A stretch of DNA of 64,000 bases. Origin: Selenomonas sp. F0473 (GTDB lineage Bacteria; Bacillota; Negativicutes; Selenomonadales; Selenomonadaceae). A program made the position numbers and the translations under genes. Below the pieces are notes generated by a model. The model made no database searches and was not told the DNA's origin. It was given only the letters and a program-made list of their open reading frames with translations. Location of the stretch: contig NZ_JH992902.1 of assembly GCF_000315545.1 (NCBI RefSeq), positions 1,384,470 to 1,448,469 on the forward strand, written 5' to 3'. Positions 59,962-63,967 of the stretch are shown piece by piece. Within the stretch, counting starts at the first letter, position 1; each line of letters starts with the position of its first letter.

Positions 59962-60957
59962 CTAGCCGATTCCGACGATTGCGCCGAGCCCGCGGAAGAT
60001 GCCGCCGATGACATTGCCGATGATATTGCCGCCGCCGCCTTGCTTTTTCACGCGTTTCTCGACGCGTTCAAGCTGGGCGGAAAGCGCGGTATCGGTCTTG
60101 TCGGAGGCCTCCCACGCGCGGCGGAGGAACTGGGCGGCCCACTTGTATTTCTTGTGGCGCTCGCAGATGAGCCCGTAGTACTGGTCGCTGCGCCAAAGCG
60201 GATAGACCGTGCTCTCGCGCGTGACGTCGTCCGCGGCGGCGAGGCTGCGCACGGCGTTTTCGTCGTCGCCCATCTCGTAGTAGGCGCGCCCGCGCAGAAC
60301 GTGCGCGTAGGCGAGCGCATCGCCCGTGACGCGCGGGTCGCCGATGAGGCGCGAGATCTCCTGTACGGCTTCGGCGGGCTGCCCTGCTTCGATGAGACGC
60401 GCGGTCTCGTCAAAGATCGCCGTATAGGGGAGCGTGTCCTCGAGCCGTGTGCCGTGCGTCGCTGCCGCCGCATTCTTCGCGACTTGTTCGCGGATGCGCA
60501 GGGCGCTGTTCTGCGCCTTCAGCGCGTCGCGCTCCCGCTCGAGACGGGCGATTTCTTCCTTTTTATGCGCGAGGGATTCGACATCGACCTCTTCGGTATC
60601 CACCTCACAGGTGAGGCGGACGCGGTACTGCCACGCTCCGCGCACGGTTTCGGGGACGGCTTCCTCCTTGATGATCCGCAGGATCGTGCCCGCGACCGTG
60701 CGCACCTCGTCCTTTGTCAGCGTGAGGTTCTTCGCTTCGGTATAGCTCTCGACGTAGACGCCCGCCTGCTCGACGGCGGCGCGCATGGCCTCCTTGCGGG
60801 CGGCGTCGCGCGCGTCCTTCGGCGCGTCGCTGTCGCCCATGACGTAGACGCCCTCGGCTTCGATGATCTGCGGGGCGGCAAAGGCGCCGCGGCTGCCGAG
60901 CGGGCAGCCGACGAGCATGAGGAGTACAAAAACGAATAGGACCGTCCGTGGTCGCAT
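59962..60957 (-). CDS. LPP20/FlgT_N-like exported protein with TPR-like repeats, copy 1
   Basis: A 331-residue exported protein (signal about 1-28). PQIIEAEGVYVMGDSDAPKD-ARDAARKEAMRAAVEQAGVYVESYTE is the LPP20/FlgT N-type domain. A short coiled coil (about 128-150) and TPR-like helices (YAHVLRGRAYYEMGDDENAVRSLAAAD, about 210-235) follow. The tail is Gly-rich and hydrophobic (GGGGNIIGNVIGGIFRGLGAIVGIG), possibly membrane-interacting. It follows its paralogue by three bases. Confidence 0.75.
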   Translation of the reverse strand: MRPRTVLFVFVLLMLVGCPLGSRGAFAAPQIIEAEGVYVMGDSDAPKDARDAARKEAMRAAVEQAGVYVESYTEAKNLTLTKDEVRTVAGTILRIIKEEAVPETVRGAWQYRVRLTCEVDTEEVDVESLAHKKEEIARLERERDALKAQNSALRIREQVAKNAAAATHGTRLEDTLPYTAIFDETARLIEAGQPAEAVQEISRLIGDPRVTGDALAYAHVLRGRAYYEMGDDENAVRSLAAADDVTRESTVYPLWRSDQYYGLICERHKKYKWAAQFLRRAWEASDKTDTALSAQLERVEKRVKKQGGGGNIIGNVIGGIFRGLGAIVGIG

Positions 60958-60960
60958 GAT

Positions 60961-62004
60961 TTATCCCTCCTGTCGGTCTTGGCGGTCCTGTTCCATGGAT
61001 CCGCGAATGATCTCGGTAACGATCTGCGTCCAGTTGATGCCGCGTTTCGCGCCGCCGTCGCCGCGCTCCATGTGGCGCCGTTCCTGCTCCGCCTTGTGTT
61101 CCGCGCGGCGCAGGTTCATCCAAAGCTCGTCGTCGGTCTTATCCGAGGCGTCCCATGCGCGGCGCAGCTCCGCCGCCGCGTCGTCGTAGCGTTCCGCCTC
61201 GTAGTAGATCTGTCCGCGGTACTGGTGCAGGCGCCAAATGGGGTAGACGTCGTTCGTGTGCGGGGTGCGGTCCGCCGCGTTAAAATCTGCGAGCGCGAGT
61301 TTATCGCTGCGCAGCTCGTAGTAGGCGCGCCCGCGCAGGTAATAGGCATAGGCCCGCGCACTGTCCGTCACGGTCGGATCGCCGACGATGCGTGAGAGCT
61401 CTTCGATGGCGCGGCGTTCTTCGCCGCGCTGAATCATCGCCGTCGCTTCGTCAAAGACGCGCCCGAGGGAATAACTCTCCTCAAGTTGGGCGCCGATGGC
61501 TTTTTTCTCCGAACCCTCGGCGCGTTCGTAGCGGGCGAGGAGATCGTCGTTTTGGCGTTTTAGCGCGTCGCGTTCCTTTTGGAGGCGCGCAATTTCGGCC
61601 TTATTGGACGCAAGGGCGGCGATGTCGACCTTTGACGCGTCCACTTCGCAGACGAGATGTACGCGGTAGCGCCACGCGCCGTCGACGAGTTCGGGCGTCG
61701 CCTGCTCCTTCAGCACGCGCAGAACGGTGCCCGCGACCATGCGCACCTCGTCCTTCGTGAGCGTGAGGTTCTGCGTCTCGGTGTAGCTCTCGACGTAGAC
61801 GCCCGCCTGCTCCGTCGCCGACCGCATCGCCTCCTGGCGCGCCGCGTCGCGCGCGATCTTCGGCGAGTCGTTGTCGCCCATCATGTAAACGCCCTCTGCC
61901 TCGATGATCTGCGGGGCGGCTCCCGCCGCGGGCGAAGCGAGCAGCAGATAGAGGCTGAGCGCAAAGACGGCGGCGCATGCGCCGCGTAATTTTTGTACCA
62001 TCAT
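60961..62004 (-). CDS. LPP20/FlgT_N-like exported protein with TPR-like repeats, copy 2
   Basis: A 347-residue paralogue of the preceding entry and the first gene of the pair. Signal peptide about 1-29, the same IIEAEGVYMMGDNDSPKIAR domain, coiled coil (about 130-165), TPR-like helices (YAYYLRGRAYYELRSDKLALADFNAAD) and a charged tail instead of the Gly-rich one. AAGGAG is six bases before the first of two ATG codons (62004). A role in envelope or flagellar-type assembly is possible but unproven. Confidence 0.75.
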   Translation of the reverse strand: MMVQKLRGACAAVFALSLYLLLASPAAGAAPQIIEAEGVYMMGDNDSPKIARDAARQEAMRSATEQAGVYVESYTETQNLTLTKDEVRMVAGTVLRVLKEQATPELVDGAWRYRVHLVCEVDASKVDIAALASNKAEIARLQKERDALKRQNDDLLARYERAEGSEKKAIGAQLEESYSLGRVFDEATAMIQRGEERRAIEELSRIVGDPTVTDSARAYAYYLRGRAYYELRSDKLALADFNAADRTPHTNDVYPIWRLHQYRGQIYYEAERYDDAAAELRRAWDASDKTDDELWMNLRRAEHKAEQERRHMERGDGGAKRGINWTQIVTEIIRGSMEQDRQDRQEG

Positions 62005-62165
62005 ATATCTCTCCTTGGCCGCGTGCGCCGACGCTGTACGCGGCTCTTCTCTTATCCATGAGTTCAACCGTATTGTTCCAAAACTCCATTAAATCGCTGT
62101 GAAAGGAGCATTAGGACGGCGTTGTATTTTCCCCGCCGTACGCGGAAAAAACTTTGCGCGCGGGG

Positions 62166-62205: not shown

Positions 62206-62281
62206 GCTGATTTAGCTCAGTTGGTAGAGCAGCTCATTCGTAATGAGCAGGTCGTAGGTTCAAGTCCTATAATCAGCTCCA
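62206..62281 (+). tRNA. tRNA-Thr (anticodon CGT)
   Basis: A complete cloverleaf: acceptor GCTGATT/AATCAGC, D-arm GCTC-AGTTGGTA-GAGC, anticodon stem GCTCA/TGAGC with loop TTCGTAA (anticodon CGT at 62239-62241, decoding ACG), T-loop TTCAAGT, encoded CCA end. Own promoter and terminator. Tails of tRNA genes are common integration sites; none is visible here. Confidence 0.95.
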
Positions 62282-62337: not shown

Positions 62338-62626
62338 GAAATTCAGCGTAGAGCCGCAACCTCAGTGATGCGGAAGTTTCGATGCATCGCACGGAATGAG
62401 GAGAATACGAGCGAGGCCGTAGTTAAAAGCCTACGTCGAGCGAAGTAAAGGGCGACATGACAAAGCGAGGCGCGAAAATCCTACGTCACACCGCAGCCTA
62501 AGCGACGCGCAAGCTTGGATGGATAGCTAGGAACTAGGAAAATACAAGGGTAGGCGTGGTATAATACCTACGTCAACCGCAGTATTTTCCGCAGTGACGA
62601 CGCTAGGCGCCAAGATCGGGCGTCGC
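62338..62626 (+). repeat. dispersed repeat, two tandem copies
   Basis: Two units (about 62338-62494 and 62495-62626) with GGAAGTTTCGATGCAT or CAAGCTTGGATGGATAGCTA starts, the central GGCGTAGTTAAAAGCCTACGTC-type hairpin and AGGCGCGAAAATCC / CTAGGCGCCAAGATCGGG ends. They are inverted relative to the doublet at 53.6 kb. The second unit overlaps the last codons of the sirtuin gene (from 62603). Confidence 0.75.
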
Positions 62627-63340
62627 ATCATGCAGCACATCCCCGATCGGCTCCCGTATCACCAGCTCCGCCCGCCCATCGGCGCGCGTCTCCGTGCGGT
62701 TGATGAGGACGAGGTGATCCCCGCGGAAATAATCGATCAGTCCCGCTGCCGGATAGACGATGAGCGAGGTGCCGCCGATGATGAGCGTGTCGGCGGCGCG
62801 GATCGCCGCGACCGCGCCCTCGACGGTGTCGGTGTCGAGGCTTTCTTCATATAATACGACATCGGGGCGGACGATGCCGCCGCACGTGCAGTGCGGTACG
62901 GGGCGGTTGTGCAGGATAAAGTCGAGTTCGTAATGCGCGCCGCAGTCCATGCAGTGCGCGCGGCGGATGGAGCCGTGCAGTTCATAGACGGTCTTCGAAC
63001 CCGCCGCCTGATGCAGTCCGTCGATGTTCTGCGTCACGACGGCGGCGAGGATGCCCCGCCGCTCGAGCTCCGCGAGCGCATAGTGTCCGGGGTTCGGCTC
63101 TGCGGCGAGGTAGACAAAACGCGATCGGTAAAAGTCGAAGAACTCCGCCGGATGCGCGATAAGAAACGAGTGCGACGCCATCTGCTCGGGGCTGTACTCT
63201 TTGTGCAGCGTCTCGCTGTAGATGCCGTCCGCACTGCGAAAATCCGGAATGCCCGACTCGGTCGACATGCCCGCGCCGCCGAAGAACACGGCCCGCGTGC
63301 TCTTACCGAGGATTTCCCGAAGCTGTGCAATTTTATCCAT
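62603..63340 (-). CDS. cobB: NAD-dependent protein deacylase (sirtuin)
   Basis: A 245-residue Sir2 enzyme: GGAGMSTESGIPDFRS (NAD loop), VVTQNIDGLHQAAG with the catalytic His in ELHGSI, the four-Cys zinc site HCMDCGAHYEL ... CTCGGIVRPDVVLYEE, and IIGGTSLIVYPAAGL. It removes acyl groups from lysines using NAD+. The last codons (about DATPDLGA and stop) come from the CTAGGCGCCAAGATCGG part of the dispersed repeat, so the native C-terminus was replaced by repeat insertion. AAGGAGG precedes the ATG. Confidence 0.9.
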   Translation of the reverse strand: MDKIAQLREILGKSTRAVFFGGAGMSTESGIPDFRSADGIYSETLHKEYSPEQMASHSFLIAHPAEFFDFYRSRFVYLAAEPNPGHYALAELERRGILAAVVTQNIDGLHQAAGSKTVYELHGSIRRAHCMDCGAHYELDFILHNRPVPHCTCGGIVRPDVVLYEESLDTDTVEGAVAAIRAADTLIIGGTSLIVYPAAGLIDYFRGDHLVLINRTETRADGRAELVIREPIGDVLHDATPDLGA

Positions 63341-63454
63341 GATATCCTCCTTCCGTCGATCCTGTTTCTTTTCTTATTTTATCGGCTCTGCGGCGGAAAT
63401 GCAACAAGTTGGTTCCGTCGGGATAATTTTCTTATTTTTATAATTTTGTAAGAC

Positions 63455-63613
63455 AAAAGTAAAAAATGTTATACTCTAATGAAAAATAAAGTTTACACAA
63501 AGTATACATATTCTCATACGACACGAACGAATCCGCAGCAACGGGATCCCTGCGCTCTATCGGTACGCCGGCATCACCACAGGAACTGCCGCGGCGGTTC
63601 GTTCGTGTTTTTA
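63455..63613 (+). ncRNA. candidate branched small RNA
   Basis: ACACGAACGAA (63521-63531) pairs perfectly with TTCGTTCGTGT (63598-63608), followed by TTTTTA. Inside are two more stems: CGCAG/CTGCG (about 63534-63554) and CGGCA/TGCCG (about 63569-63592), a three-way-junction shape. TATACT at about 63472 and TTTACA near 63492 are possible promoter parts. No reading frame with a ribosome site is present. No known RNA family recognised. Confidence 0.5.
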
Positions 63614-63654
63614 TTTCTTAAATAATGTCTGCGGGAGGGGGGACGGGGATATCC

Positions 63655-63810
63655 GGAAAATTAGGCAATAAACGATTAGGGGCAGATGCAAAAATCGGGC
63701 GCTGCCACCGTAATCTAAGCGATGCGGAAGTTTCGATGCACAGCGAAGCGTTCGACAAAATGACGCGGCTATGCGCGAAAAATACTGTACTCGACGTAGC
63801 CTTTAACCGC
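63655..63810 (+). repeat. degenerate copy of the dispersed repeat
   Basis: TCTAAGCGATGCGGAAGTTTCG (as two overlapping pieces), then GCTATGCGCGAAAAATAC and CTCGACGTAGCCTTTAAC match parts of the units at 62.4 kb, in scrambled or shortened form. Confidence 0.55.
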
Positions 63811-63826
63811 CTTCGCCCGTATCGAA

Positions 63827-63863
63827 CCGCCGCATCCGTTCTTCGCGTGATGCGGCGGATTTT
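63827..63863 (+). terminator. intrinsic terminator-like hairpin
   Basis: CCGCCGCATC (63827-63836) pairs with GATGCGGCGG (63849-63858), then ATTTTCTC. Confidence 0.6.
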
Positions 63864-63896
63864 CTCTTGTATACCTTTCTGTCGCGGCGCCGTTTC

Positions 63897-63925
63897 TTTC
63901 ATATACTCGTAAACTATGATATAAT
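63897..63925 (+). promoter_or_regulatory. promoter of the gene at the window end
   Basis: TTTCAT (63897-63902), 17 bases, TATAAT (63920-63925). Confidence 0.5.
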
Positions 63926-63967
63926 AAGTAACAGTTTTGAAAATTTATGAAAAGGGGCAATGCATGT

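Follow-up and report, generated by a model that had tools for sequence, protein, structure and literature searches.

An unconserved terminator-like hairpin between the Sir2-family and OPT transporter genes of Selenomonas sp. F0473

In a 64,000-nucleotide stretch of the Selenomonas sp. F0473 genome, referred to here as the window, the intergenic stretch 63341-63946 separates a Sir2-family gene from an OPT oligopeptide transporter gene and holds a hairpin whose stem runs into a T-rich tail. We give about an even chance to the reading that this hairpin is a lineage-specific intrinsic (Rho-independent) terminator, which would close a short orphan noncoding transcript and carry an unusually long, weakly structured loop. 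Unless RNA data reveal a discrete transcript, the hairpin is ordinary; as a single unconserved terminator-like hairpin, it means little as it stands. The features of the locus, in window coordinates, are:

62603-63340, minus strand: Sir2-family gene sir2 (PF02146)
63446-63475, plus strand: TTGTAA-18-TATACT, a promoter-like site whose -10 box is preceded by TG, 9 of 12 matches; predicted transcript start near 63482
63479-63625, plus strand: 48-codon ATG frame running through the whole hairpin, probably chance
63519-63611, minus strand: the same element in a single long rod-shaped fold interrupted by internal loops, -47.6 kcal/mol
63521-63531, plus strand: left arm of the closing stem, ACACGAACGAA
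63532-63597, plus strand: GC-rich interior between the arms, 66 nt
63533-63536, plus strand: inner stem extension CCGC, past one bulged base, pairing with GCGG at 63594-63597 in both the fold and the centroid
63598-63608, plus strand: right arm of the closing stem, TTCGTTCGTGT
63609-63619, plus strand: terminator-like T-rich tail TTTTATTTCTT, directly 3' of the right arm
63827-63858, plus strand: a further terminator-like hairpin ahead of the OPT gene, reading CCGCCGCATC...GATGCGGCGG with ATTTTCTC after it
63947, plus strand: first ATG of the OPT oligopeptide transporter gene (PF03169; L027:6417-8468)

The closing stem is a perfect 11-bp inverted repeat with pairing probabilities of 0.92-1.0. 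An earlier note on this DNA had claimed an 11-bp closing stem running straight into a T run, and both parts of that description hold, with 63521-63531 pairing perfectly to 63598-63608 and TTTTATTTCTT beginning directly after 63608. Among 5000 dinucleotide shuffles of 63341-63960 (620 nt), 121 contained at least one perfect 11-bp inverted repeat and 2 contained such a repeat together with a T-run, odds that are to be read knowing that this stretch was picked after the fact. Across the whole 64-kb window there are 12 such inverted repeats, two of them nested, and T-rich sequence follows a few. Our terminator pattern scanner, which is restricted to loops of 3-8 bases, does not report the 11-bp stem itself. 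We conclude that stem and T-run together make a genuine terminator-like signal, even though the stretch was chosen afterwards.

About 45 nt before the stem lies the promoter-like site, of the extended -10 type. Five such sites were observed in the 2 kb scanned, compared to 1.5 (sd 1.2) expected, and a single site is weak evidence alone. The element had originally been taken to start at 63455, a position that falls inside the promoter-like site and not at a transcript start. The 48-codon frame begins 4 bases past the -10 box, upstream of the predicted start of transcription. It has no Pfam match and no ribosome-binding site visible by eye, and a frame of at least 48 codons arises in 566 of 2000 shuffles of 63460-63660; on these three grounds we consider a small protein improbable. 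Most likely the frame is due to chance, and there is probably no likely gene over the hairpin. The earlier description of a gene-free stretch thus stands in that sense, although an ATG frame does cross the whole hairpin.

The terminator reading rests on the rarity of stem plus T-run among shuffles, the promoter-like site, the pairing probability of the stem and the probable lack of a coding frame. Against it count a 66-nt loop that is long for an intrinsic terminator, a promoter-like site with only 9 of 12 matches where 1.5 are expected by chance in the 2 kb scanned, a better fold on the minus strand, the absence of relatives for comparison and the small chance that the 48-codon frame is translated. 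Under this reading, RNA polymerase would start near 63482 at the extended -10 promoter and transcribe an AT-rich leader followed by the GC-rich 66-nt loop. At the U-run both arms would anneal into an 11+4-bp stem, and an RNA of ~130 nt would be released near 63610. Termination there may also shield the downstream OPT gene from read-through. Should a discrete RNA be detected, the locus would exemplify a noncoding gene of very recent origin.

The overall stability of the plus strand at first suggests a structured RNA. The 159-nt stretch folds at -42.4 kcal/mol (z -3.46), and the putative transcript as a whole has a z of -3.4. When the closing stem is kept and the interior shuffled, however, z is +0.09 and 522 of 1000 shuffles reach an equal or lower energy; the 66-nt interior alone has a z of +0.74, with 770 of 1000 shuffles as low. 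It is thus the closing stem that produces the global z of -3.4 to -3.5. This is a useful example of how one closing stem lends a whole stretch a structured look, as a z of about -3.5 vanishes once the stem is fixed. The three-way junction with two further stems that the earlier note described fares poorly. Since that note gave no base pairs, we tested a reconstruction from its description, which folds at -28.8 compared to a minimum of -38.5 kcal/mol, about 10 above. Pairing probability in this reconstruction is 0 for the first branch stem, 0 for the outer half of the second stem and 0.46-0.49 for its inner half. The minimum-energy fold is also branched, but otherwise, and several alternative interiors lie within about 1 kcal/mol. 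A CsrA-sponge idea, drawn from GGA in two loops, was dropped because it rests on the unsupported fold. The promoter plus terminator anatomy and the overall z of the putative transcript would also suit a true regulatory small RNA that has a defined fold and acts in trans on mRNAs. We consider this unlikely, given a plus-strand interior no better than shuffles and the results from relatives described below.

On the minus strand, 63518-63612 folds at -47.6 kcal/mol, compared to -38.5 on the plus strand. With the stem kept and the interior shuffled, 18 of 1000 shuffles are as good (z -2.43); for the minus-strand interior alone, 68 of 1000 are (z -1.64). We read the minus-strand fold as a mild signal, bearing in mind that two strands were tested. 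The lower energy and the stem-kept result are what a structured minus-strand RNA would predict, for instance a rod within a transcript toward sir2. Such an RNA is quite improbable: the interior alone stands out less and was one of two strands tested, no T-run follows the rod on the minus strand, and the only nearby upstream minus-strand promoter-like site is a 9/12 match at 63943-63916. Additionally, a covariance model of the minus-strand fold (R2) found only its own genome within the genus, the scope to which that scan was confined.

We looked for the element in RNA families and related genomes. Consistent with the earlier statement that it matches no known RNA family, no Rfam 15 family reaches its gathering score over the hairpin, and the sole gathering-score match in the window is a tRNA at 62206-62278. 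Allowing E up to 10 on the 620 nt yielded rliD at 63341-63607 (14.5 bits, E 0.13, cut-off 50) and a minus-strand match to RAGATH-30 at 63421-63441 (15.3 bits, E 3.3, cut-off 59.5), both far below their cut-offs. The element is single copy in its own genome, and on that ground a dispersed repeat or MITE identity for the hairpin was dropped. An integron attC site was also dropped, since inspection of the stem ends by eye did not reveal the end motifs of such sites.

The relatives searched comprise 188 other genomes of the family, 13 of them congeners examined more closely. A DNA search of the 189 family genomes, with at most 4 candidates scored per genome, returned the own genome only. In a set of 60 genomes including its own, matches occurred in just two, the own genome and a 36-nt match in G018 (83%, E 8.3e-4). 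We set the latter aside because it lies in an AT-rich gap between a 373-aa ORF, presumably FtsZ, and the next ORF, and resembles only a promoter. BLAST of 63441-63640 against loci L001-L141 gave only weak matches outside the own genome; the same G018 place was best (E 0.001), and a match in L046 covered the AT-rich part at 66% over 85 nt (E 0.023). The exact stem pattern was found in 1 of 380 genomes of the class, its own, and in none of the 379 others. Viral contigs held no match for two patterns. The phage search returned 12 records, all of which covered less than 80% of the query (best E 0.05), and the plasmid search returned 2 records (E 0.6).

A more permissive search of the 14 genus genomes (E up to 10) gave 121 short matches besides the element itself. 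From these we fetched eight places, four in the own genome and one each in G005, G012, G010 and G002, and added a covariance-model match in G011. No copy of the hairpin was seen by eye in these nine stretches, and eight of them contain an open frame of over 90 codons. The model behind the G011 match (R1, plus-strand fold), like R2, was built from a single sequence given twice. Within the genus R1 found the own genome and G011 (E 0.9); with stricter filters across the 189 family genomes it found the own genome, G185 and G080, the latter two at E 0.02 per genome, which is about what chance predicts when 189 genomes are scanned. All three outside matches lie inside long open frames and were rejected.

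The earlier note had named a lack of conservation as grounds for refuting its small RNA. With no credible relative in the 188 other family genomes, that is what we observe at the species level, nor was conserved structure with covariation found among them. A species-specific small RNA, unlikely but compatible with this result, has no comparative argument in its favor. Among the titles listed in one literature search, none concerned Selenomonas small RNAs. For a trans-acting regulator, the lack of conservation means that neither a retained seed nor a retained fold is in evidence. One 17-nt segment within the loop does recur with one mismatch in 10 of the 14 genus genomes, but in the four places examined it lies in the sense of a conserved coding frame, which we take to be hemC, and not antisense to it.

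The genomic setting points to a junction specific to this genome. The Sir2 and OPT genes are both present in all 14 genus genomes, and the window's genome alone has them on either side of a single intergenic stretch. Nine of the 13 congeners carry both on one contig, separated by about 42-128 kb, and the other 4 have them on different contigs. In G003, the nearest congener by protein identity (92-93%), sir2 and OPT each have other neighbors. The DNA upstream of sir2 resembles that of G003 strongly over 63341-63425, where 0 of 1000 shuffles do as well. The resemblance is marginal over 63425-63520 (54 of 1000), with 63429-63457 as its best piece, and there is none over the hairpin, 63512-63620 (157 of 1000). 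When 63425-63620 was aligned with the 400 nt upstream of sir2 in each of the 13 congeners, the three best alignments (L008, L016 and L004) were equaled by 5, 8 and 11 of 200 shuffles, which we take as chance given 13 tests on AT-rich DNA. Downstream of the hairpin, 63701-63822 consists of pieces of a dispersed repeat, and 63613-63960 has 19 matches in the genome, the query itself counted. Because sir2 and OPT are neighbors only here, similarity to G003 fades and dispersed-repeat pieces follow, we place the hairpin in a genome-specific junction.

These same observations, together with the absence of credible relatives, are what one would expect of a non-functional or decaying imperfect inverted repeat (an 88 bp palindrome) left at a rearrangement junction, with no transcript unit at all. 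We regard such a remnant as possible, if rather unlikely. An inverted repeat of this kind requires neither the T-run that directly follows the stem nor the promoter-like site ahead of it, and the stem and T-run coincided in only the 2 of 5000 shuffles given above.

Other observations concern the surroundings. The dispersed-repeat pieces are modular and occur in the window at 63701-63822 and 62354-62600 in varied combinations and orientations. At 59962-60957 and 60961-62067, both on the minus strand, are adjacent ORFs with paralog-like translations that by eye share APQIIEAEGVY.MGD. Centipeda periodontii and Selenomonas noxia were among the best 80 of 583 relatives retained from a scan of genome contigs with the Sir2 protein.

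The second hairpin raises the question of whether the two terminator-like structures act together. The segment 63823-63853 is an inverted near-copy of 63571-63601, with 24 of 31 positions matching, and links both hairpins. In an RNA that reads through the first, the two segments could form an attenuator/antiterminator pair, opening both terminators before OPT. The complementarity of 24 of 31 positions is in its favor, as is an ungapped score of 17, which tops all others in the stretch and was reached in 0 of 300 shuffles; however, shuffles break palindromes, so chance complementarity is likelier than that count says, and genome-wide the same match has an E of 2.24. When the 386-nt read-through RNA is folded, the hairpins stay separate in the minimum-energy structure, inspection by eye of the 1 kb preceding OPT in G003 showed neither hairpin, and a promoter-like site of the OPT gene's own lies at 63898-63925, beyond both hairpins. 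We find this pairing scheme scarcely credible. The place in G003 that corresponds to this promoter-like site still reads CTATGATATAATAA; with this retained and OPT having a promoter-like site of its own, the orphan RNA is not needed as an OPT leader, which favors the terminator reading given at the outset. A bolder version would make the element a species-specific regulatory RNA of ~130 nt, newly arisen at the rearranged junction, whose right half can pair with the second terminator hairpin, about 220 nt further on; termination of the small RNA would thereby be tied to how the neighboring oligopeptide transporter gene is expressed. We give it hardly any credence.

The 1.5 kb upstream of sir2 in the 13 congeners, which we surveyed separately, contains a putative type I toxin-antitoxin unit in eight (L005, L007, L008, L010, L011, L012, L015 and L016); none was found in the window. 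In this unit an antitoxin-RNA-like module (GACTGGTGATTGG..CGCCGGTCTCTCC) faces a hydrophobic ORF of about 27-30 aa, which, from a peptide typed by eye, bears a weak resemblance to Pfam Hol_Tox (13.2 bits against a cut-off of 23.3, E 0.086). The module is present twice in L010, L012 and L016, and had no Rfam match in the 4 loci scanned, nor in L011 at E up to 1. A MITE-like element of ~160 bp, with terminal inverted repeats like GGAATCACTGATAAA/TTTATCAGTGATTCC, lies upstream of sir2 in L008, L012 and L015 and downstream of it in L005 (1263-1424). It alters how the toxin-like ORF ends in L015, and no ORF of this kind was found in L008.

Among known systems, 6S RNA (RF00013) shares a rod-like fold, seen here on the minus strand. 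We rejected this identity, as the genome's one RF00013 match lies elsewhere, at G000:C1:1704683-1704857 (38.8 bits, E 1.9e-6, cut-off 46.4). With orphan intergenic bacterial small RNAs the element has in common a candidate promoter-like site, a probable lack of coding, a terminator-like end and an intergenic place; it differs in being predicted from sequence, in having no credible relatives in the genomes searched and in an interior that folds no better than shuffles. Intrinsic terminators commonly have a short loop of a few bases. Like them, the hairpin has a stable, GC-containing stem followed at once by a T-run, but its loop is 66 nt long. We therefore file it as terminator-like in mechanism and not as a typical member of that class.
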